From an uncultured Bacillota bacterium (GTDB lineage Bacteria; Bacillota; Clostridia; Oscillospirales; Oscillospiraceae): 64,000 nt of DNA. The stretch is from NCBI GenBank assembly GCA_947645675.1, contig CANSDP010000002.1:62001-126000 (forward strand), in the 5' to 3' direction. Each line of letters opens with the position of its first letter. The stretch's first letter is position 1. Below, one piece after another: positions 5,904-24,321 of this stretch. Below the pieces are notes generated by a model that saw only the letters and a list, made by a program, of their open reading frames with translations, had not been told where the DNA came from and searched no databases. The position numbers were made by a program, and so were the translations under genes.

Positions 5904-6371
5904 TCATCGAATAATGGTACCGTTGAGGACGGCGCGGACGAGGCGGTCGCCCTTGTAGCAGACCTTGAGGGAGAAGAAGGGGGCGTCCTGCCAGATGAGG
6001 TTGAGGAAAATTTCGTCTCCCTCCCAGTGGGGGATTTTCAACAGCTGCTCCTTGGGAATCCACTCCAGCACGCCCTCGTCGCAGTCCTTGAGGGTACCGG
6101 TAAAGCCGTCGGCGGTGAAGAGGTGCATATACTCGGTGGCCCAGCGGTCGGAGACGAAGGTGACCACGCCCCGGCAGCGGTAGCCGGTGAGGGTGAGGCC
6201 GGTTTCCTCCAAAACCTCCCGAAGCAGACAGTCCTCGGGGCTCTCTTTGTCCTCGAACTTGCCGCCGATGCCAATCCATTTATCGTGGTTCAGGTCGTTT
6301 TCCTTCTTGATCCGGTGGAGCATCAAATACTCCTCCCCCCGGCGGATATAGCAGAGGGTTGTGTTTATCAT
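5904..6371 (-). CDS. NUDIX hydrolase (MutT/8-oxo-dGTP diphosphatase-like)
   Basis: 155-residue pyrophosphohydrolase acting on a nucleoside diphosphate linked to another moiety. The Nudix box spans about residues 37-59: GGKFEDKE, then REVLEETGL, with the expected metal-binding glutamates. The DKWIGIGGKFE and DEGVLEW segments resemble the clostridial 8-oxo-dGTP diphosphatase (YtkD/MutT) group; the exact substrate cannot be read. Its ATG overlaps the htrA stop by 4 bp, suggesting translational coupling, and it is the last gene before a strong terminator. Confidence 0.88.
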   Translation of the reverse strand: MINTTLCYIRRGEEYLMLHRIKKENDLNHDKWIGIGGKFEDKESPEDCLLREVLEETGLTLTGYRCRGVVTFVSDRWATEYMHLFTADGFTGTLKDCDEGVLEWIPKEQLLKIPHWEGDEIFLNLIWQDAPFFSLKVCYKGDRLVRAVLNGTIIR

Positions 6372-7609
6372 GGCTCAATCAGCTCCACATCTACAGTATG
6401 GCGCTCCCCGTTCCGCAGGTAGGTGAGGGTCACGCTGTCGCCGGCGCCCAGGTCCAGCTTGAGGCGGGTCAGCACCTCCAGGCCGGTGATGGGGATGCCG
6501 TTGGCCTCCAGGAGAACGTCTCCCGACCGCAGGCCCTTGGCCCAGGCGTCGCTGCTTCTCTCCACGCTTTGCAGCTCCAGCCCGCCCCCCTCGGCCAGGG
6601 TCCGGTAGACCATGAAGCCGAAGATGCCCGCCCGGACCTCCTCCCCGGCAATGAGGCGGTCGGCCACGTACTTCACCCGCCGGGAGGGGATGGCGAAGCC
6701 CAGCCCCTCGGCGGAGCCGTCCTCGCTGACAATCTTCACCGTGTTGATGCCCACCACCTGGCCGTACTGGTTGAACAGCGGCCCGCCGGAGTTGCCGTAA
6801 TTGATGGCGGCGCTGGTTTGAATGAGGGTCATTTTGGTGTCGTCCACCTGGACCTCCCGGTCCAGCGCGGACACGATGCCGTCGGTAAAGGTGGCCCGGT
6901 AGCCCAGGGAGTCCCCCAGCGCGGCCACCGGCTCGCCGATGCGCAGGGCGTTGGAGTCGCCAAACTCGGCGGGAACCAGCCCCTCGGCCTCCACCTTCAA
7001 AACGGCCAGGTCCTCCACCGCGTCGAAGCCCACCAGGCTGGCGGGCAGTGCCCGGTTGTCGTGGAGAATCACCCGCACCGACTGGGCCCCGGCCACCACA
7101 TGGGCGTTGGTGATGAGGTAGCCGTCCTGGGTGAGGACCACTCCGGTGCCCGAGCTGTAGCCGTCAGCGTGCTTTGACTCGATGGACACGGCGGAAGCGG
7201 CGGTCCGCTCATAGATGCCGGCGTAGTCCAGCGCCTCCCCGTGGACGGGGAGAAGGGAGACCGTCACCCCTGAGCCGGTGTCCGCCCGGGGGATGTCGGG
7301 GGGGTCGGTGCTTTGCTGACCGGTATCCTCATACTGCCAGTCCTCCCCGATGTAGGGGAAGGGGGCCTGGAGGAGGGGGCGCTGGTCCAGCAGGCGGTCC
7401 AGCAGCAGGATGGACAGGCAGACCGCCGCGATCAGCGCCCCCAGTCCCAGGAACCAGGTCCATTTTTTCCGCCTCCGCCGCACCCGCAGCACAGGCCGCC
7501 GGGAGGTATAGGCCCCCTTGGGGACGCGGACGGCGGGCGGGTCAGGGAACGCCGGGGACGGCTGCTCCCAGGGTCCGCCCCGCCACAGGCCGTCGTTTTG
7601 GTTGTCCAT
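6368..7609 (-). CDS. htrA: HtrA/DegP-type membrane-anchored serine protease
   Basis: 413-residue envelope quality-control protease. The N-terminal ~50 residues are cytoplasmic, Pro/Arg-rich and end in RRRRKKW. One TM helix lies at about 51-70, followed by a trypsin-like domain with catalytic triad His170 (TNAHVV), Asp200 (VEDLAVLK) and Ser274 (YGNSGGP), then one PDZ domain at about 310-410 (LRSGDVLLEANG). Length and layout are typical of Gram-positive HtrA. It begins 16 bp after the histidine kinase stop codon. RR-HK-HtrA order recalls the WalRK-HtrA locus of Bacillota. Confidence 0.95.
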   Translation of the reverse strand: MDNQNDGLWRGGPWEQPSPAFPDPPAVRVPKGAYTSRRPVLRVRRRRKKWTWFLGLGALIAAVCLSILLLDRLLDQRPLLQAPFPYIGEDWQYEDTGQQSTDPPDIPRADTGSGVTVSLLPVHGEALDYAGIYERTAASAVSIESKHADGYSSGTGVVLTQDGYLITNAHVVAGAQSVRVILHDNRALPASLVGFDAVEDLAVLKVEAEGLVPAEFGDSNALRIGEPVAALGDSLGYRATFTDGIVSALDREVQVDDTKMTLIQTSAAINYGNSGGPLFNQYGQVVGINTVKIVSEDGSAEGLGFAIPSRRVKYVADRLIAGEEVRAGIFGFMVYRTLAEGGGLELQSVERSSDAWAKGLRSGDVLLEANGIPITGLEVLTRLKLDLGAGDSVTLTYLRNGERHTVDVELIEP

Positions 7610-7625: not shown

Positions 7626-9068
7626 TTACGCCAGCGTCAGCGTAAACTGAAATTGGGTCACTCCGTCCTCGCTGCTCACGGTGATGCTCTCCTTCAAGCT
7701 GCACAGAATCGTTTTAACGATATACAGCCCCAGGCCCACGCCCTCCCGGTCCATAGAGCGGGAGTAGTCCGCCTTGTGGAACCGCTCGAACAGCAGGGGC
7801 AGCTCGTCCGGGGGGATGGTGGCCCCCAGATTGCGGATGGTGGTTTGGGCCTTGCCGTCCTTTTTGACGATCTGGATGGTGATAGCGGTGCCGGGGGCGG
7901 CGAATTTGGCGGCGTTGTCCAGCAGGTTATAGCACACCTGGGTGACGGCGTCCGGGTCGCCCCACACCATCAGCTTGTCCTCGGGCATCTTCACGTCCAC
8001 GTCCAGCTGCCGCCCGGTGATCTTGGTCTCCAGGCTGATGAGCACCTGAGACATAACCTCCGTCAGGTCGAAGGCCTCCTGAGCGGTGACGGTGCTCTCC
8101 GCCAGGGCGTTGAGCCGGCTGAGGTCCAGCATCCGCCGCACCAGGCGGCTGAGCCGGCGGGTCTCGGAGACAACAATCTCCAGGGACTCCCGCTCCCGCT
8201 CCGGGGGGATGGTGCCGTCCAGAATGCCCTCGGCAAAGCCGGCGATGGTGGTCATGGGGGTTTTCAGCTCGTGGGAGACGTTGGCGATAAATTCCGCGCG
8301 CTGGCTCTCCACCTTCTCCAGAGAACTTGCCATCGCGTTAAAAGCCTCCGCCAGGGCGCCCACCTCGTCACAGCGGTCCTCATAGCCGTCCACCCGGACG
8401 TCGAACTCCCCCTGGCCGAATTTCCGGGCCGCCTCGGCCATTTCGTTCAGGGGCCGGGTCTGGTGGGCGGAGGTGAGGGTACTGGCAATGACGGAGATCA
8501 AAAAGACCACCACGGCGGAGAAGAAAAAGATGGTAGCGGTAGCCGTCCACATCTCGGACAGGTTGGAGGCGTCCGCCGCCACCAGCACCATCCCCTGAAT
8601 CACCGTCACCTGCCCCAGCTGGTTGGCCACGGGCAGAGCGGCCAGATAGCGTTTGTCCTCATAGAGCCCCCCCAGGGTGGTCATGCCGTTGAAGGAGCCC
8701 TCGTTGAGCACCTGAGCGGTCAGGGCCTCGGGCAGGACGCTGCCCTCCGAGACCTTGGGCTCCTCCTCGGCGGTGTTATAGATGATCTTGCCCTTGGGGT
8801 CGGCCACAATAATGTCCGAGTTGGAGATCCTGGCGATGGAGGCCACATAGTTGCGATAAAAGTCATCCTGAAACTCCAGCGAGAGGAAGGTCCGGTAATA
8901 GGAGGCGGTGAAGCTGGTGACATAGCCCGCGTTGCGCTCCACCGAGTCCCGGGTCTCGCCGATGATATAGCGGTAGGACAGCAGCATGAAGGCCCCCGCC
9001 AGCAGGGTAAAGGACACCAGCATGATGCTCACCATCATGGTCAGCTGCCGGCGGTATAGGGAACGCAT
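7626..9068 (-). CDS. Sensor histidine kinase (HAMP, HisKA, HATPase)
   Basis: 480-residue membrane kinase. TM1 at about 10-32, an extracytoplasmic sensor of ~140 residues, TM2 at about 177-199, HAMP at about 200-252, phosphoacceptor His266 in ANVSHELKTP, and a HATPase domain with NLLDNAAKF and GVGLGLYIVK. There is no obvious PAS domain between HAMP and HisKA, unlike WalK or many PhoR proteins. It is cotranscribed with the response regulator at 9187-9879 and with htrA, which points to sensing of envelope state. The ligand cannot be inferred. An R3 repeat sits between the kinase and regulator genes. Confidence 0.95.
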   Translation of the reverse strand: MRSLYRRQLTMMVSIMLVSFTLLAGAFMLLSYRYIIGETRDSVERNAGYVTSFTASYYRTFLSLEFQDDFYRNYVASIARISNSDIIVADPKGKIIYNTAEEEPKVSEGSVLPEALTAQVLNEGSFNGMTTLGGLYEDKRYLAALPVANQLGQVTVIQGMVLVAADASNLSEMWTATATIFFFSAVVVFLISVIASTLTSAHQTRPLNEMAEAARKFGQGEFDVRVDGYEDRCDEVGALAEAFNAMASSLEKVESQRAEFIANVSHELKTPMTTIAGFAEGILDGTIPPERERESLEIVVSETRRLSRLVRRMLDLSRLNALAESTVTAQEAFDLTEVMSQVLISLETKITGRQLDVDVKMPEDKLMVWGDPDAVTQVCYNLLDNAAKFAAPGTAITIQIVKKDGKAQTTIRNLGATIPPDELPLLFERFHKADYSRSMDREGVGLGLYIVKTILCSLKESITVSSEDGVTQFQFTLTLA

Positions 9069-9186: not shown

Positions 9187-9879
9187 TTACCCCGCCGTGC
9201 CCAGCTCGAATTTATAGCCCACGCCCCAGACGGTTTTCAGCCGCCACTGGTCGCTGACGTTCTCCAGCTTCTCCCGCAGGCGCTTGATGTGCACGTCCAC
9301 CGTGCGGCTGTCGCCGAAGTAGTCGAAGCCCCACACCTCGTCCAGCAGCTGGTTCCGGGTAAATACCCGGTTGGGGGAGGAGGCCAGGTGGAACAGCAGC
9401 TCCAGCTCCTTTGGCGGGGTGTCCACCCGCTGTCCGTCCACCAGCAGCTCATAGGAATCCAGGTTGATGACCAGCTTGTCAAAGGACAGCTTTTTCTCCC
9501 CCGGCTCCTCCTCCGCGCCGCTGCGGCGGAGCACCGCCCGGATGCGGGCCAGCACCTCCTTCATCTCGAAGGGCTTGACGATGTAGTCGTCCGCTCCCTG
9601 TTCCAGGCCGGAGACCTTGTCCTCGGTCTCCCCCTTGGCGGTGAGCATGATGACCGGAGTGCGGTCGCCCTCCCGGATTTTTTTCAGCACGGACCAGCCG
9701 TCCATGATGGGCAGCATGATGTCCAGCAGCACCAGGTCGGGCTGGAAGGCCCGGAAGAGCTCGATGCCCTTCCCGCCGTCCTTGGCTACCTGGGACTCGA
9801 AGCCCTCCTTCTCAAGATAGAGATGGAGCAGCTCGGCGATGTTGGCGTCGTCCTCCACGATCAGGACTTTTTTTGACAT
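9187..9879 (-). CDS. OmpR/PhoB-family response regulator (WalR/PhoP-like)
   Basis: 230 residues. Receiver domain with acidic Asp10/Asp11, phosphoacceptor Asp53 (LVLLDIMLP), Thr80 and Lys102 (VKPF). The C-terminal winged helix carries TRNQLLDEVWG followed by DSRTVDVHIKRLREKLE, which resembles WalR somewhat more than PhoP by eye. It is the first gene of the unit with the histidine kinase, htrA and Nudix genes. Its promoter region (9962-10003) carries two 11-bp-spaced TTCAC-type boxes, the same kind found before the twin small RNAs at 11286-11615, suggesting autoregulation. Confidence 0.95.
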   Translation of the reverse strand: MSKKVLIVEDDANIAELLHLYLEKEGFESQVAKDGGKGIELFRAFQPDLVLLDIMLPIMDGWSVLKKIREGDRTPVIMLTAKGETEDKVSGLEQGADDYIVKPFEMKEVLARIRAVLRRSGAEEEPGEKKLSFDKLVINLDSYELLVDGQRVDTPPKELELLFHLASSPNRVFTRNQLLDEVWGFDYFGDSRTVDVHIKRLREKLENVSDQWRLKTVWGVGYKFELGTAG

Positions 9880-9961: not shown

Positions 9962-10003
9962 ATTATATCGCAAATGGAAACGCTTGGGTGAATAATCTGT
10001 GAA
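9962..10003 (-). promoter_or_regulatory. Response regulator promoter with 11-bp direct repeat boxes
   Basis: On the minus strand TTCACA (plus 9998-10003), 5 nt, TTCACC (plus 9987-9992), 19 nt, TATAAT (plus 9962-9967). PhoB/PhoP/WalR-family regulators bind paired boxes with this 11-bp period. The box begins at the CDF stop codon. Confidence 0.6.
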
Positions 10004-11188
10004 TTACGGCGCTTTTGGGCCCTCCACATAGGAGTGGTCCACCTGAATCACCGGGAAATAGCGGTCGGAGAGCTTTTTCAGCTCCAGGGACAGGGTCCCC
10101 CGGACCTCCTCGTCAGACAGGCGGAAGCCGTAGGGCACCACCACGTCGAAGAGGACATTGGTGTGGATGGGCCCGGCGGTGACCCGGAAGTCGTGGATGG
10201 TGAGGACGGGGTCGATCCCCCGGGCCAGCTCGGCGGTCTGGAGCCGCAGGGCCTCGGTCCGCCCGTCCCGGACCACCGGGTCCATATGGATGCAGGTCTC
10301 GATGTGGTGCTTGGCCTTCAGCTCCCGTTCGATGTGGTCGATAACATCATGGACCTCCAGCAGATTGGCGTTGGCGGGCACCTCGGCGTGGAGGGACATC
10401 ATGGCCCTTCCGGGGCCGTAGTCATGATAGACCAGATCGTGGATACCCAGTATGTACTCATGACCCAGGACGATACGGTCGATGTCGGAGGCCAGCTCCG
10501 GGTCCATGGGGCGGCCCAGCAGGGGGTCCACGGTGTCCTTAACCGCCTCCCAGCCGGTACGCAGGATGAACAGGGCCACCCCCATGCCCAGCCAGCCATC
10601 CAGGGGCAGGGACAGGAAATGACCGGCCACCAGGCCCAGCAGCAGGATGCTGGTGGCGGCGGCGTCAGACAGGGAGTCGGCGGCGGTGGCGGCCAGGGCG
10701 GCGGACTGGATGCGCCGGGACAGGCCCCGGTTGAAGAAATACATCCACAGCTTCACCGCCACCGAGGCGGCCAGAATGACCGCGGGCAGGAGATCGAAGG
10801 CCACTGGCTCCGGGTGCAGGATCTTCTGAAAGGAGGACTGGGCCAGCTCGGCCCCCACCAGCAGGATCAGCAGGGCCACCACCAGTCCGGCCAGGTACTC
10901 CATCCGGCCGTGGCCGAAGGGGTGCTCCTCATCGGCCTCCTGGCTGGCCAGACGGAAGCCCACCAGGGTGACCACCGAGGAGGCGGCGTCAGACAGGTTG
11001 TTGAAGGCGTCGGCGGTAACGGCGATGGAGGCGGTGGCGATTCCCGCCAGCAGCTTGCCCAGGAAGAGCAGAAGATTCAGCCCAATACCGATGCTTCCGG
11101 ACATCACGCCGCACCGGCGGCGGGTCTCCGGGGTCCGGGGGTCTCCTCCCCCCAGGCAGAAGCGCAGAAAAGCATCCAAGAAAAACAC
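10004..11188 (-). CDS. Cation diffusion facilitator family transporter
   Basis: 394-residue divalent metal/proton antiporter of the inner membrane. Six TM segments; metal-site residues appear in TM2 (ADAFNNLSDAAS) and TM5 (AADSLSDAAATS), and a His-rich cytoplasmic stretch EEHPFGHGRMEY sits between TM2 and TM3. The C-terminal ~100 residues form the dimerisation domain of CDF proteins. Metal specificity cannot be assigned firmly. The annotated start is a GTG at 11188; a TTG at 11179 has better spacing from GAGGTG and may be the true start. The gene has its own promoter and two palindromes upstream. Confidence 0.92.
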   Translation of the reverse strand: MFFLDAFLRFCLGGGDPRTPETRRRCGVMSGSIGIGLNLLLFLGKLLAGIATASIAVTADAFNNLSDAASSVVTLVGFRLASQEADEEHPFGHGRMEYLAGLVVALLILLVGAELAQSSFQKILHPEPVAFDLLPAVILAASVAVKLWMYFFNRGLSRRIQSAALAATAADSLSDAAATSILLLGLVAGHFLSLPLDGWLGMGVALFILRTGWEAVKDTVDPLLGRPMDPELASDIDRIVLGHEYILGIHDLVYHDYGPGRAMMSLHAEVPANANLLEVHDVIDHIERELKAKHHIETCIHMDPVVRDGRTEALRLQTAELARGIDPVLTIHDFRVTAGPIHTNVLFDVVVPYGFRLSDEEVRGTLSLELKKLSDRYFPVIQVDHSYVEGPKAP

Positions 11189-11285: not shown

Positions 11286-11339
11286 TTTACAAAAAGTTCA
11301 CCCGCCGGTCATGATTTAGCCTTATTCCCAGGCTATGAT
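11286..11339 (+). promoter_or_regulatory. Promoter with three 11-bp boxes, small RNA 1
   Basis: TTTACA (11286-11291), TTCACC (11297-11302) and GTCATG (11308-11313) at exact 11-bp steps, then 20 nt, then TATGAT (11334-11339). Box count, phase and distance to the -10 are identical in the second copy at 11462-11515. Confidence 0.6.
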
Positions 11340-11345
11340 GATATC

Positions 11346-11447
11346 GTAGTCAGGTGAATGAAGTAAATGAAATGTATCTCCTTTCTCTCTCCTTTACAAC
11401 ACACAAAAGGTAAAGCGCTCCGGGATAGCCGGGGCGCTTTGCTTTGG
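11346..11447 (+). ncRNA. Candidate small RNA 1 (CU-rich, terminator-ended)
   Basis: Predicted ~100-nt transcript. The middle (about 11376-11395) is a CU-rich stretch with several CUCCUUU/CUCUCC motifs able to pair with AAAGGAG ribosome-binding sites, followed by ACAACACACA. It ends in a 12-bp stem (11412-11423 with 11429-11440) and a T-rich run. It shares the TGTATCTCC...CTCTCCTTT.ACAACACAC block with the RNA at 11522-11615. Short ATGs inside lack Shine-Dalgarno sites, so coding seems unlikely. Nothing else was recognised in this 470-bp gap. Confidence 0.55.
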
Positions 11448-11461
11448 TCAAGCAATGCAAA

Positions 11462-11515
11462 TTCACAAAAAGTTCACGGGAATGTCACGAAATCGCCTCA
11501 TTTATATCTTATGAT
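11462..11515 (+). promoter_or_regulatory. Promoter with three 11-bp boxes, small RNA 2
   Basis: TTCACA (11462-11467), TTCACG (11473-11478) and GTCACG (11484-11489), 11 bp apart, then 20 nt and TATGAT (11510-11515). Same architecture as 11286-11339. Confidence 0.6.
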
Positions 11516-11521
11516 GACATC

Positions 11522-11615
11522 GTAGCTTAGCTACATCTCATGTATCTCCCATTTCTCCCTCTCCTTTTACAACACACAGGCAGAACGCCCCGGCTTTAGC
11601 CGGGGCGTTCTGCCG
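11522..11615 (+). ncRNA. Candidate small RNA 2 (tandem paralogue)
   Basis: Predicted ~95-nt transcript. A small 5' hairpin GTAG-CTTAG-CTAC (11522-11534) is followed by a CU-rich stretch (about 11544-11567) with CUCCC, CUCCCUCUCC and UUUU, then ACAACACACA, then a 14-bp perfect stem with a TTTA loop (11581-11612). The run after the stem is poor in T, so termination efficiency is uncertain. Layout matches small RNA 1. Confidence 0.55.
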
Positions 11616-11666: not shown

Positions 11667-13781
11667 TTATTTGTCCAGCTTATCAAACTGCATCAGCATC
11701 TGCGCGGCCTGGGCCCGGGTGATGGTGCCCTGGGGATTCAGGGTGTCGTCGCCCATGCCGTTGATCACGCCGGTCTCGACGGCCCAGCGCATGGCGTCCA
11801 GGCAATCGGCGGACACGGAGTCCGCGTCGGTGAAGGCCAGCTCGGCCTCAGCCTTGGGACTGCCGGCGTAGAGGTACAGGACCTTGGCTACCTGCTCCCG
11901 GGTGATGAAGACGCTGGCCTCAAAGCTGCCGCCCTCGGCCAGACCAGCCAGGAGGCCCTGTTCCGCGGCCCAGTTCACTGCGTTGGCGTACCAGTCATCG
12001 GCGGTCAGGTTGTCGAAGCTGTCTCCCTCCACGGCGGGCTCGCCGGCCATGACGTAGAGGATCTGCATTACCATCTCCTGGGTCAGGGTGCTGCTGCCGT
12101 CAAAGAGGCCGTCGCCCACGCCCTGTATGAAGCCCTTCTCAAAGGCGTACTGAGAGGCCTTGAAGTACCAGTCCTTGGTGATCACGTCGGTGAAGGGGCG
12201 CTTGTAGGATTTTTCCAGGAGGTAGTCAATGAGCTCCAGGCCCTTCTCATGGGCCCGCTTGGCCATGTCCTTGCCCACCTCGGTGGTGTCCTTGGGGTCC
12301 ATCTTCTCAAACTCGGCGTAAAACTCCTTCTGGAGGGCGCTGAGCTGGTCCAGGACATACTGCTTGTCCTCGGCGCTGACGGGCTTGCCGGTGATCTCCT
12401 CGGCGTAGAGAATATAGCCGCCCAGGCCCTCGAAGGTGAAGTAGAAGGAGTCTCTCCAGTTCTCGGGGTATTCCACATACATGCCGTCGTTCCGGGTGGT
12501 CCAGGTGTGGAAGCCCTCGGGGACCTTGTCGCTCTGGGTCACCACCTGAGTGGAGACCTGATAGCCCTCATACTGGTCCTCCAGCAGCAGGGGGTAGTAG
12601 GGGATGAATACGTTGTTGGACATATTACCGACGCCAACCCAGCCCACAGTGCCGGTCTGGACGGGCTCGTCCTTGAAGAGCTGGAAGATCTCGATCTCCT
12701 GGTTGCTGGGCTTGCCGATGCTGCTCAGCTTGTAGTAGTTGAACACATCGTCCTTGGTCAGCTTGCGGTCCACCTTGATGTTGGTGTAGAAGGGGACAAG
12801 CTTGCCGTCCTTCACGTTGGAAATGGTGAACTTGGTGTTGTCCGCGAAGAGGTCGGCGGGGGTGTAGTCAGAGTCCTTGTCCAGGAACTTCAGGCCGTCG
12901 GACATACGGGGGGTGCCCACCCGGGGGCTCTCCTCGGTGCCCAGGTTGGCGTAGGAGGCCCGGAAGTCGATGATGTTCTTGTCCGCGTCGCCCACAAAGG
13001 TACCGGCCTGCTGAGCCACCTTGATGAGCTTTTCAGAGGCGATCACATTGTCGGTGTCGTTCAGGTCCACCAGACCGATAACGGCAATGTTGGGCTCCAG
13101 GAAGATCAGGTCCTCGTTCAGCTTGATGGCCACATACTGGGTGCCGGAGCAGTTCTCGATGTACCAGGTCTCCTTCTGGTCGCAGACGAAGATGCCGGAG
13201 TCGAAGAACGCGCCGTACTCGTCATAGATCTTGGCGAGCAGCTCGATGCCCTCACGGGCGGAGGCGGCCTCGGCCAGGAGGATGGTGGGGATATCGGTCT
13301 CCTCAATGCCCACCACGCCGTCTACCTTTTCCTGAACGTTCGGGTCAATCTTCTTGACCTCGGCGTTGCCGGAGATGGTCTCGGTGGCGGAGACAGAAAG
13401 GCCCTTTTCGTTGGTGCCGAACTCGGTGTAGGACCAGTGGGTGGGGTTCTCCTGGCCGCACTCGGGGCACTTGCCGTTGTAGATGTCGTTGGTGAAGTAG
13501 GTAAAGCGGTAGCTGTCGTGGGTGAAGGTCCACTCAAACTCGCCGTACTCGGGGCAGCCAAGGAACTTGTCGCCCTTCTTGAAGTGGCCGGCCTCGCTGA
13601 TGAACCACAGCTTGTTCATATCGGAGCCGTAGTCCTCGGTGCGGGCCACGAAGGGGGTGCCCTCCTCGGTCAGGTTGCCGCCCACATAGATGGTGGTACA
13701 GGCGGAGGCGCCCACGGTAGCCGCCAGGGTCAGCGCGGTCACAGCGGTCACGGTTGCCAGGAGTTTTTTCCATGCTTTCAT
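11667..13781 (-). CDS. Peptidase family C69 (PepD-like) dipeptidase with C-terminal SLH domains
   Basis: 704-residue predicted secreted peptidase. Signal sequence about 1-27 ends directly before Cys28 (ACTTIYVGG), the N-terminal nucleophile of family C69, so the peptidase would be activated by signal or propeptide removal. The family motif TEDYGSDMNK follows near 47. The catalytic domain extends to about 500, a helical linker to about 545, then three SLH modules: about 548-596 (FTDVITKDWYF), 607-657 (FDNLTADDWYA) and 668-704 (FTDADSVSADC). Relatives include wall-anchored peptidases of gut Clostridia. A CxxC pair (CPECGQ) near residue 100 is unusual. Monocistronic, with its own promoter and terminator. 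Confidence 0.92.
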   Translation of the reverse strand: MKAWKKLLATVTAVTALTLAATVGASACTTIYVGGNLTEEGTPFVARTEDYGSDMNKLWFISEAGHFKKGDKFLGCPEYGEFEWTFTHDSYRFTYFTNDIYNGKCPECGQENPTHWSYTEFGTNEKGLSVSATETISGNAEVKKIDPNVQEKVDGVVGIEETDIPTILLAEAASAREGIELLAKIYDEYGAFFDSGIFVCDQKETWYIENCSGTQYVAIKLNEDLIFLEPNIAVIGLVDLNDTDNVIASEKLIKVAQQAGTFVGDADKNIIDFRASYANLGTEESPRVGTPRMSDGLKFLDKDSDYTPADLFADNTKFTISNVKDGKLVPFYTNIKVDRKLTKDDVFNYYKLSSIGKPSNQEIEIFQLFKDEPVQTGTVGWVGVGNMSNNVFIPYYPLLLEDQYEGYQVSTQVVTQSDKVPEGFHTWTTRNDGMYVEYPENWRDSFYFTFEGLGGYILYAEEITGKPVSAEDKQYVLDQLSALQKEFYAEFEKMDPKDTTEVGKDMAKRAHEKGLELIDYLLEKSYKRPFTDVITKDWYFKASQYAFEKGFIQGVGDGLFDGSSTLTQEMVMQILYVMAGEPAVEGDSFDNLTADDWYANAVNWAAEQGLLAGLAEGGSFEASVFITREQVAKVLYLYAGSPKAEAELAFTDADSVSADCLDAMRWAVETGVINGMGDDTLNPQGTITRAQAAQMLMQFDKLDK

Positions 13782-21858: not shown

Positions 21859-21974
21859 CGCCGCCCCTGTCTGCCAAAAATTGAATATTTTTTTCATCAT
21901 CGGACAGCGGAGCGGCTCTTTTGCCTCCGCTGTCCGTCTTTTTTAACAATTCATTCACACCTGCGTAATTTTTG

Positions 21975-22116: not shown

Positions 22117-23412
22117 TTGACAAAATATTTGATTCACGGAGGAAATACCCTCCACGGAACCATCCAGATCAGCGGGGCCAAAAACGCCGCTGTAGCCATC
22201 ATTCCCGCCGCTCTGCTGGTAGACGGCGTGTGCCGCATTGAAAACGTCCCCCAGATCAGCGACGTGACGCTGATCCTTCAGATTTTAAGAGAGCTGGGCG
22301 CCGACGTGCGCATGGTGAACCGGACCACCCTGGAGGTGGACTGCTCCCATATCCGCAACCGCCAGGTGCCCTATGAGCTGGCCCGGAGGATTCGAGCCAG
22401 CTATTACCTGGTCGGCTCCCTGCTGGGCCGGTTCGGCTGGGCGGAGGTCCCCCTGCCCGGCGGCTGTGACCTGGGCGGACGGCCTGTGGACCAGCATATC
22501 AAGGGCTTTGTGGCTATGGGGGCCGAGGTGGACGTGCGCAACGGCCTGATTTACGCCCGGGTGCCCAACGGAGCCCGCCTGTCCGGGGGACAGGTCTATC
22601 TGGATATCGTCTCCGTGGGGGCCACCATGAATATCATGCTGGCCGCCACCCTGGCCAGCGGCCTCACCGTCATCGAAAACGCCGCCAAGGAGCCCCATAT
22701 CGTGGATCTGGCCAACTTCCTCAACTCCATGGGGGCCGACATCCGGGGGGCGGGCACCGACGTGATCAAGATCAGAGGGGTGTCCCGGCTGAGGGGCGGC
22801 GCCTACTCCATCATCCCCGATCAGATTGAGGCGGGCACCTATATGGCCGCTGTGGCCGCTGCGGGGGGCGAGGTGCTCATCAAGAACGTCATTCCAAAGC
22901 ACCTGGACTGCATTACCGCCAAGCTGGTGGAGATGGGGGTGGACGTGGAGGAGCGGGACGACGCCCTCCTCCTCCGCCGGGAGGGTCCCATGGGCCGGGT
23001 GAACGTAAAGACCATGCCCTACCCCGGCTTTCCCACCGACATGCAGCCTCAGATCGCCGCCGTCCTGTGCGTGGCGCAGGGCACCAGTGTCCTCACCGAG
23101 GGGGTCTGGGACAACCGCTACCGCTATGTGGACGAGTTCCGCCGCATGGGGGCCCACATCCAGGTGGACGGCAAGGTGGCCGTCATCGAGGGGGTGGACC
23201 ACCTGACGGGAGCTCCCGTTCACGCCTGCGACCTGCGGGCCGGAGCCGCTATGATTATCGCCGGTCTGGCCGCTCAGGGCGTCACCGAGATCGACGGCAT
23301 CCACCACATTGAGCGTGGCTATGAGACCATCGTGGAAAAGCTGGCCAGTCTGGGCGCCGACATCCAGACCGTCGCTATCCCGGACGAGGATAGTCAGGCG
23401 CAGGTGGGATAA
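22117..23412 (+). CDS. murA: UDP-N-acetylglucosamine 1-carboxyvinyltransferase MurA
   Basis: 431-residue cytoplasmic enzyme for the first committed step of peptidoglycan synthesis, transferring enolpyruvyl from PEP to UDP-GlcNAc. Lys22/Asn23 (SGAKNAA) and catalytic Cys117 in LPGGCDLGGRPVDQHIKG are present, so it keeps the fosfomycin-targeted cysteine. DYRRSG-type end motifs (GAAMIIAGLAAQG) are at about 375. TTG start at 22117 with AGAGGG upstream. Followed by a terminator and then walJ-rlmH. Confidence 0.96.
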   Translation: MTKYLIHGGNTLHGTIQISGAKNAAVAIIPAALLVDGVCRIENVPQISDVTLILQILRELGADVRMVNRTTLEVDCSHIRNRQVPYELARRIRASYYLVGSLLGRFGWAEVPLPGGCDLGGRPVDQHIKGFVAMGAEVDVRNGLIYARVPNGARLSGGQVYLDIVSVGATMNIMLAATLASGLTVIENAAKEPHIVDLANFLNSMGADIRGAGTDVIKIRGVSRLRGGAYSIIPDQIEAGTYMAAVAAAGGEVLIKNVIPKHLDCITAKLVEMGVDVEERDDALLLRREGPMGRVNVKTMPYPGFPTDMQPQIAAVLCVAQGTSVLTEGVWDNRYRYVDEFRRMGAHIQVDGKVAVIEGVDHLTGAPVHACDLRAGAAMIIAGLAAQGVTEIDGIHHIERGYETIVEKLASLGADIQTVAIPDEDSQAQVG

Positions 23413-23489: not shown

Positions 23490-23505
23490 TATGAGGAGCG
23501 ATATT

Positions 23506-24321
23506 TTGTTCACCTTTACCACCCTTGCAAGCGGCTCGCTGGGCAACGCCGCTCTGGTCTCCTGCGGAGACACCCACATCCTGCTGGACGCGGGGATTTC
23601 CGCCAAGCGCGTCACCGCAGGGCTGGCGGAGCTGGGGGTGAAGCCCCGTCAGCTGTCCGCCATCCTGCTGACCCATGAGCACAGCGACCATGTGTCCGGC
23701 CTGCGGGTGCTGACCAAAAAGGCGGGGGCTCCCATCTACGCCACCCGTCCCACCCTGTGGGAGTGGTGCAAGCGGAACCGGTGCGACGAGGTAAAGGCGC
23801 TGTTCCAGCCCCATGAGGCGGGGACCGGGTTTCAGATCGGCTCGCTGTGGGCGGAGTCCTTCCCCACCCCCCACGACGCGGCGGGCAGCGTAGGCTGGTC
23901 CATCGCCGGGGAGGGGGGGCGCATGGTGCTGTGTACCGACCTGGGCCATGTCACCGAGCCGGTCCGCCGGGCGGTGGCGGGCTGTGACCTGCTGGTGTGC
24001 GAGGCCAATCACGACGTGGACTGGGTCAAATCGGGACCCTATCCCTACTACTTAAAGCAGCGCATTTTGGGAGACTACGGCCACCTGTCCAACGAGGCGG
24101 GGGCCGAGCTGGCCGCCTTTGCCGTGGAGAACGGCACCCGGTCGGTGATTCTGGCCCACCTGTCCCAGACCAACAACACCCCCGCCCGGGCCTATGAGAC
24201 GGCGGCTCTCCGCCTGACGGCTATGGACCGCAATCTGGAGCGGGACATCTCCCTGTCCGTCGCCCCCGCCGGCAGCCTGGGGCCGACCGTTGCCCTGGGA
24301 AGGGAGGCGCCGGTATGCTGA
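23506..24321 (+). CDS. walJ: MBL-fold metallohydrolase, YycJ/WalJ family
   Basis: About 271-residue metallo-beta-lactamase-fold protein. It opens FTFTTLASGSLGNA, contains the metal motif THEHSDHVSG and later FPTPHDAAG, CTDLGHV, EANHD and LAHLSQTNN, all in YycJ order. YycJ homologues are linked to cell-wall control with WalRK and to DNA repair/processing. The TTG at 23506 is preferred because GAGGAG lies 7 nt before it; the ATG at 23491 overlaps that site and would add five residues. It overlaps rlmH by 7 bp. Confidence 0.9.
   Translation: MFTFTTLASGSLGNAALVSCGDTHILLDAGISAKRVTAGLAELGVKPRQLSAILLTHEHSDHVSGLRVLTKKAGAPIYATRPTLWEWCKRNRCDEVKALFQPHEAGTGFQIGSLWAESFPTPHDAAGSVGWSIAGEGGRMVLCTDLGHVTEPVRRAVAGCDLLVCEANHDVDWVKSGPYPYYLKQRILGDYGHLSNEAGAELAAFAVENGTRSVILAHLSQTNNTPARAYETAALRLTAMDRNLERDISLSVAPAGSLGPTVALGREAPVC

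Follow-up and report, generated by a model that had tools for sequence, protein, structure and literature searches.

Two adjacent units on the + strand of the analysed DNA, a stretch of 64,000 nucleotides (nt) from contig CANSDP010000002.1 of an uncultured Oscillospiraceae bacterium (hereafter the window), appear from their sequence to encode two non-coding RNAs, each about 95 nt long, that belong to one shared family. They were found near a cluster encoding a response regulator (RR), a sensor histidine kinase (HK) and an HtrA-type serine protease. The preferred reading, with a probability of roughly 0.6, is that this HtrA-linked two-component system drives multicopy small RNAs (sRNAs) that cover Shine-Dalgarno (SD) sites, as CiaRH does with the csRNAs and LisRK with LhrC. 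Computation established that the RNAs form a conserved family, that their promoter boxes are shared with the RR gene and that they are linked to the regulator. The analysis supplies a covariance model and a promoter code for an RNA spread over the bacterial family and names a candidate for its regulator, in gut commensals that are little studied genetically.

Layout of the two units

The paralogous pair (unit 1, 11286-11450; unit 2, 11462-11615) was found between the CDF transporter gene (10004-11188, - strand) and the C69 dipeptidase gene (11667-13781, - strand), the latter carrying an SLH domain and being oriented opposite to unit 2. In each unit three boxes at 11-bp spacing stand 20 nt before TATGAT, and a leader, a CU-rich block with ACAACACAC after it and a strong hairpin come next. 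Box 1 starts 48 nt ahead of the -10 element in both. The CU-rich blocks occupy 11375-11395 and 11543-11568, followed by the hairpins at 11407-11445 and 11579-11614, with minimum free energy z-scores of -4.3 and -9.4, respectively, against 200 dinucleotide shuffles. The block of unit 1 is without CAU (subtype A) and that of unit 2 contains CCCAU (subtype B). The elements were as follows:

11286..11339, + strand: promoter of sRNA 1; boxes TTTACA (11286), TTCACC (11297) and GTCATG (11308), a fourth degenerate repeat GCCTTA (11319), TATGAT at 11334-11339, 20 nt after the third box
11346..11447, + strand: predicted sRNA 1, of subtype A; a leader is followed by the CU block TATCTCCTTTCTCTCTCCTTT, ACAACACAC and hairpin 11407-11445, the 5′ end being inferred from the -10 element
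11462..11515, + strand: promoter of sRNA 2; boxes TTCACA (11462), TTCACG (11473) and GTCACG (11484), TATGAT at 11510-11515, 20 nt after the third box
11522..11615, + strand: predicted sRNA 2, of subtype B; the 5′ mini-hairpin GUAGCUUAGCUAC is followed by the CU block TATCTCCCATTTCTCCCTCTCCTTTT, which combines an anti-SD word with CAU, by ACAACACACA and by hairpin 11579-11614

An earlier note on this DNA had described two paralogous CU-rich units behind box promoters, ending in a hairpin, with 20 nt between the boxes and TATGAT; the window sequence bears out the layout and the distance. The 11-bp spacing of its three TTCAC-type boxes also held, whereas the boxes proved to be TTYAC, TTCAY and GTCAY rather than identical, and the two promoters, which it had called identical, are only alike.

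A loose three-box pattern allowing up to 2 mismatches gave four matches in the window, where shuffled sequence would lead one to expect 0.08; these are the two units, the RR promoter and a site upstream of murA. With a 55-nt promoter matrix built from 32 distinct homologous promoters, both window units among them, the units scored 72.4 and 75.5 and everything else in the window scored below 5.

Conservation and distribution of the RNA family

With unit 1 as the query, BLASTN gave a match in 23 of the 25 genus genomes, the window's own counted, and in none of the 15 genomes taken from other families within the order. A regular expression anchored on ACAACACA, which misses variants, yielded 35 units, of which 34 were aligned; the remaining one, from G023, was cut by a contig end and was excluded. 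The mean pairwise identity in this alignment was 0.90, 0.85 and 0.81 for boxes 1, 2 and 3, followed by 0.81 for the -10 element, 0.89 for TTTACAACACACA and 0.73 for the CU block. The A-rich stretch between boxes 1 and 2 was also conserved (0.83), and low values were obtained between boxes 2 and 3 (0.30), in the leader (0.44) and in the hairpin loop (0.36). The distance from box 1 to the -10 element was 48 nt in 33 units and 47 in one, and two-sided compensatory changes were found at all 14 predicted pairs of the hairpin.

The core pattern was found at 61 sites in 56 stretches of a species-level genome collection, and 57 of these sites carry the promoter. The promoter-bearing carriers include Pseudoflavonifractor capillosus, P. 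phocaeensis, Flintibacter muris, Flavonifractor sp. An100, Colidextribacter sp. OB.20 and metagenome-assembled genomes of Lawsonibacter. The other four matches (L124, L129, L133, L137) were without a promoter and were counted as chance. Three tandem copies of the RNA were observed in Flavonifractor sp. An100.

The covariance model R1 matched 98 of 300 genomes of the bacterial family. Twenty distant members picked from its matches were joined to 29 of the aligned units in a 49-row alignment, and model R2, trained also on these members, matched 180 of the 300 genomes and 70 of 106 genera; the E-values are rough, and the R2 count includes a tail of weak matches taken at face value. In the distant members the CU sequence itself was found to drift, while a hairpin, a stretch rich in pyrimidines and a promoter with box-like elements are kept, ACACACA being present in most. 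The earlier note had called for a covariance-model search and had named a lack of conservation in relatives as evidence against conserved non-coding RNA genes; the searches of the genus and the family clearly rule such a lack out. Spread beyond the family was considered for the 15 genomes of other families and rejected: two model matches below 1e-3 (G035, G026) and some weaker ones contained neither boxes nor a CU block and were taken as chance.

No family matching the units was found in Rfam 15 scans, the lax matches lying mostly on the hairpins, and among the titles listed in the literature searches, at most 20 per search, there was no paper on this RNA or on an sRNA regulon in these bacteria. 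As far as these two sources show, novelty extends to the RNA, to its promoter boxes and to the clade; the kind is already known.

Subtypes of the CU-rich block

A motif rule placed 10 of the 34 aligned units in subtype A (CTCCTTTCTCTCTCC), 21 in subtype B (CATTTCTCYCTCTCC) and 3 in neither. Subtype A precedes subtype B in tandem in six genomes of the alignment (G000, G002, G003, G004, G005 and G007). The block of subtype A contains two CUCCUUU words and CUCCUUUCU, which is identical to part of the 3′ tail of 16S rRNA. The complement of the B block reads AAAAGGAG-AGGGAGAA-ATG, that is, a ribosome-binding site with a start codon, the CCCAU being spaced to pair with the latter. The B block of the window was predicted to be open.

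The adjacent RR-HK-HtrA cluster as candidate regulator

The RR is encoded 1.4 kb from the sRNA units, in the following arrangement:

9187..9879, - strand: OmpR-family RR, proposed activator of both sRNAs
9962..10003, - strand: putative autoregulatory RR promoter, TTCACAGATTATTCACCC ... TATAAT
7626..9068, - strand: sensor HK with HAMP, HisKA and HATPase_c domains
6368..7609, - strand: HtrA-type serine protease with Trypsin_2 and PDZ domains, last gene of the cluster
10004..11188, - strand: CDF cation transporter between the RR gene and the sRNAs, a conserved neighbour

The system can be named as the candidate regulator because the RR gene has the same boxes as the sRNAs. TTYACA-N5-TTCAY was found upstream of the RR gene in 22 of 22 orthologs of the genus, and under a looser box rule a match was found at 20 of 26 RR loci from the family search, two of the 26 (L205 and L209) again being genus members. 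The pattern TTYACANAWWRTTCAYN{17,22}TANNAT matched just once in every one of 14 genus genomes, each time upstream of the RR gene, and its reversed control gave no match; being drawn from RR promoters and excluding the sRNA spacing, it tests the uniqueness of the RR site only. The sRNA three-box pattern gave 17 sites in 8 genomes, 14 of them at sRNA genes and 3 elsewhere, with zero matches for the reversed control.

The gene order agrees with this linkage. CDF, RR and HK were found within 3.3 kb of an sRNA in 13 of 20 fetched regions of the genus (17 genomes), and outside the genus an sRNA was found within 10 kb of the RR gene in 9 of 62 genomes among the matches listed, against about 0.6 expected. 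The RR was missing in 3 of 25 genus genomes (G009, G015, G024) and the sRNA in two of these same three (G015, G024) and in no other (p = 0.01, with kinship and incomplete assemblies ignored). The promoter link between the RR and the sRNAs is, on this sequence evidence, well supported; that the RR binds the boxes, and activates rather than represses, is inferred.

In some genera (G135, G255, G202, G332, L189) the sRNA was observed a few hundred bases from the RR gene, divergent and with no CDF gene between. The RR was 85-100% identical across the genus (window and L069-L088) against 43-85% for the HK, HtrA and CDF neighbours, an unusually strong constraint. An assignment of the RR as WalR (YycF) was rejected; its orthologs ranked third for NF040534 in each of G007, G012 and G011.

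Comparison with known systems

The LhrC-like layout proposed in the earlier note, with several copies, a two-component link, CU-rich motifs and a hairpin, was recovered, and the CiaRH-csRNA system was found to be at least as close an analogue. The features of both systems are given here as described in PMC3091779 and PMC4132741. The csRNAs of Streptococcus are several similar short RNAs driven by CiaR through TTTAAG-N5-TTTAAG direct repeats with an 11-bp period, and they contain an unpaired region complementary to the SD and AUG (PMC3091779). The CiaR repeat is also given as NTTAAG-N5-TTTAAG, 10 nt before the -10 element, with the recognition helix VVEVYVSKVRKKL (PMC3091779). The present system shares with the csRNAs the several similar short RNAs, the direct repeats of 11-bp period and the link to a response regulator. 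It differs from them in the boxes (TTYACA/TTCAY/GTCAY), in having three to four repeats instead of two, in the 20 nt instead of 10 to the -10 element, and in the recognition helix of the window RR (TVDVHIKRLREKL), which differs from that of CiaR at 8 of 13 places by eye. A complement of SD plus AUG of the csRNA kind is present as sequence in subtype B (21/34) and may pair likewise, whereas subtype A (10/34) has no AUG complement and no clear 5′ stem, and 3/34 belong to neither; a sequence relationship with the csRNAs is not established.

The LhrC1-5 RNAs of Listeria are multicopy and LisRK-dependent; they carry a terminator hairpin and bind close to the ribosome-binding site through redundant CU-rich motifs, and three redundant UCCC sites are described, the terminator loop included (PMC4132741). 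The copies, the two-component link, the redundant CU-rich motifs and the hairpin are shared, the pairing in our case being presumed. Unlike in LhrC, the CU motifs lie here in one contiguous block, and the hairpin loop is the poorly conserved segment noted above. At the gathering threshold, Rfam 15 returned a T-box and tRNA, and a lax scan gave no match named LhrC, the presence of an LhrC model in Rfam being unchecked.

Proposed mechanism

In the mechanism proposed here the kinase would sense stress and activate the RR, which would bind the 11-bp-spaced TTYAC/TTCAY/GTCAY boxes. The RR would then activate its own operon, HtrA included, through two boxes and the sRNAs through three boxes with a degenerate fourth. 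The CU-rich block of the sRNAs would pair with the SD regions of mRNAs and hinder translation initiation, and subtype B would cover the AUG as well through its CCCAU. Both the base-pairing and the transcript ends are deduced from the sequence. An envelope or secretion-stress signal is likewise presumed, its sole basis being the HtrA linkage and the box upstream of murA. If true, this would be a further and apparently independent case, beside the csRNAs and LhrC, of an envelope-type two-component system coupled to multicopy SD-complementary RNAs, and would suggest that such wiring is favoured in Gram-positive bacteria.

A much broader version is decidedly unlikely. It holds that a two-component system nearly universal in the family works largely through RNA, acting on its own operon, the paired sRNAs and perhaps murA. 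Subtype A would imitate the anti-SD tail of 16S rRNA, subtype B would complement the whole initiation site (SD plus AUG), and envelope stress would throttle AAGGAG-led messages. The RR mRNA would partly escape because its SD is often GAGGTG, as read by eye in 11 of 22 orthologs; against such an escape, the RR start region ranked 18th of 39 by duplex energy, in mid-field.

Observations against the preferred reading and rival explanations

Several results weigh against control of SD-covering sRNAs by this RR. Regarding the regulator, 6 of the 26 further RR promoters were without a regex match, two of the six showing near-boxes by eye, and G009 contains the sRNAs without this RR. The RR was found in 285 of 300 family genomes, so that co-occurrence at family scale is barely informative; among the 15 genomes that lack it, 6 gave an R2 match, a strong one (1.7e-16) being that of G052, whose genome is 97% complete. 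Regarding the transcript ends, a terminator scan of the + strand listed neither hairpin. On the coding strand no clear U-tract accompanies the hairpins; in the aligned units the 12 nt that follow the 3′ arm contain 5.3 T on average, the same figure as on the opposite strand. Regarding accessibility, the block was 0.80 unpaired over the 34 units against 0.76 with shuffled 5′ parts, hardly more open, and 9 of 10 subtype A blocks were just 0.55-0.68 unpaired. Regarding targets, the duplex energies of the CU blocks with 39 window start regions equalled those of composition-matched shuffles (A, -11.67 against -11.66; B, -12.84 against -12.76), the start regions being crudely called with wrong-strand open reading frames (ORFs) among them. 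A start-site pattern searched in six genomes gave 9, 7, 13, 20, 6 and 15 matches, sRNA genes included, against 5, 1, 6, 10, 4 and 4 for the reversed pattern; among the 24 of 70 sites inspected no gene recurred, two being sRNA genes and the rest diverse. The anti-SD words pointed out in the earlier note are present in the sequence, whereas the surface-protein mRNA targets it proposed found no backing in these sites or in the duplex energies.

On the - strand, the hairpin of unit 2 (11579-11614) was listed as terminator-like; it lies downstream of the C69 gene and of that gene's own terminator-like hairpin. A minus-strand reading of the units, with the hairpin followed by AAGGAG...ATG, was rejected: the frames after the ATG differ (21 against 5 codons in the two copies seen), and the orientation of the boxes, the same as before the RR gene, also opposes it.

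The target results would suit RNAs that titrate a protein, such as an RNA-binding protein, Rho or a ribosomal component, through the pyrimidine block and ACAACACAC with no mRNA pairing. The better conservation of TTTACAACACACA (0.89) than of the CU block (0.73) points the same way, as do the 20 distant members, in which pyrimidine richness and mostly ACACACA are kept while the CU sequence drifts. CUCCUUU is, however, an anti-SD word, the 21 subtype B units add CAU at start-codon spacing, and the csRNA (PMC3091779) and LhrC (PMC4132741) precedents are described as acting on the SD regions of mRNAs; titration is held to be unlikely, though it keeps some weight. A reading of the units as leaders or attenuators within longer mRNAs, or as short-peptide genes, would fit the lack of a + strand terminator call for either hairpin; ATGTATCTC is present in 16 of the 34 units, and no ORF closing within an aligned unit is longer than 32 codons. 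Each unit has its own promoter, however, unit 2 faces the oppositely oriented C69 gene, the genes downstream vary between genomes, ATGTATCTC is absent from the other 18 units, and frame-breaking indels (TTT/TTTT, CTTT/CCCATTT) lie inside the block, and stand-alone sRNAs are preferred to this very improbable explanation.

Promoters of the PhoB/PhoP type also contain repeats of 11-bp geometry ahead of the -10 element. Control by this phosphate regulator, with the boxes as Pho boxes and the RNAs as part of a phosphate-starvation response, is considered quite improbable. The genus pstS promoters (L062-L066) do contain TTTACAT/TTAACAT repeats at an 11-bp period, with 48 nt to the -10 element in L066 as in the sRNAs (by eye, one genome), and among the NCBIfam matches of the window RR, PhoB came second, with a score below its cut-off. 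These pst boxes nevertheless differ in sequence from TTCAC/GTCAC, and the local pst operon has an RR-HK pair of its own, seen adjoining pstSCAB-phoU in G007. The three-box search of 8 genomes gave zero sites at pst operons, a regex for three intact boxes gave none in 7 pst stretches, and boxes of the sRNA type were found at the other, HtrA-linked RR in 22 of 22 genomes.

The murA site and other features of the window

One further site was found to resemble the RR's own promoter:

21943..21958, + strand: two boxes, TTAACAATTCATTCAC, upstream of murA (22117-23412), tentatively a further member of the regulon

TTWACA-N5-TTCAY was found at each of the 4 other murA loci compared, of which one is almost the same as that of the window; this hints at a cell-wall regulon with a possible peptidoglycan link. 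The murA gene is adjoined by a gene for an MBL-fold protein (23491-24321, + strand), presumably WalJ/YycJ by its looks, for which NCBIfam gave weak MBL matches only. A T-box leader (RF00230, 119.6 bits) was observed in the window at 1028-1257 on the - strand.
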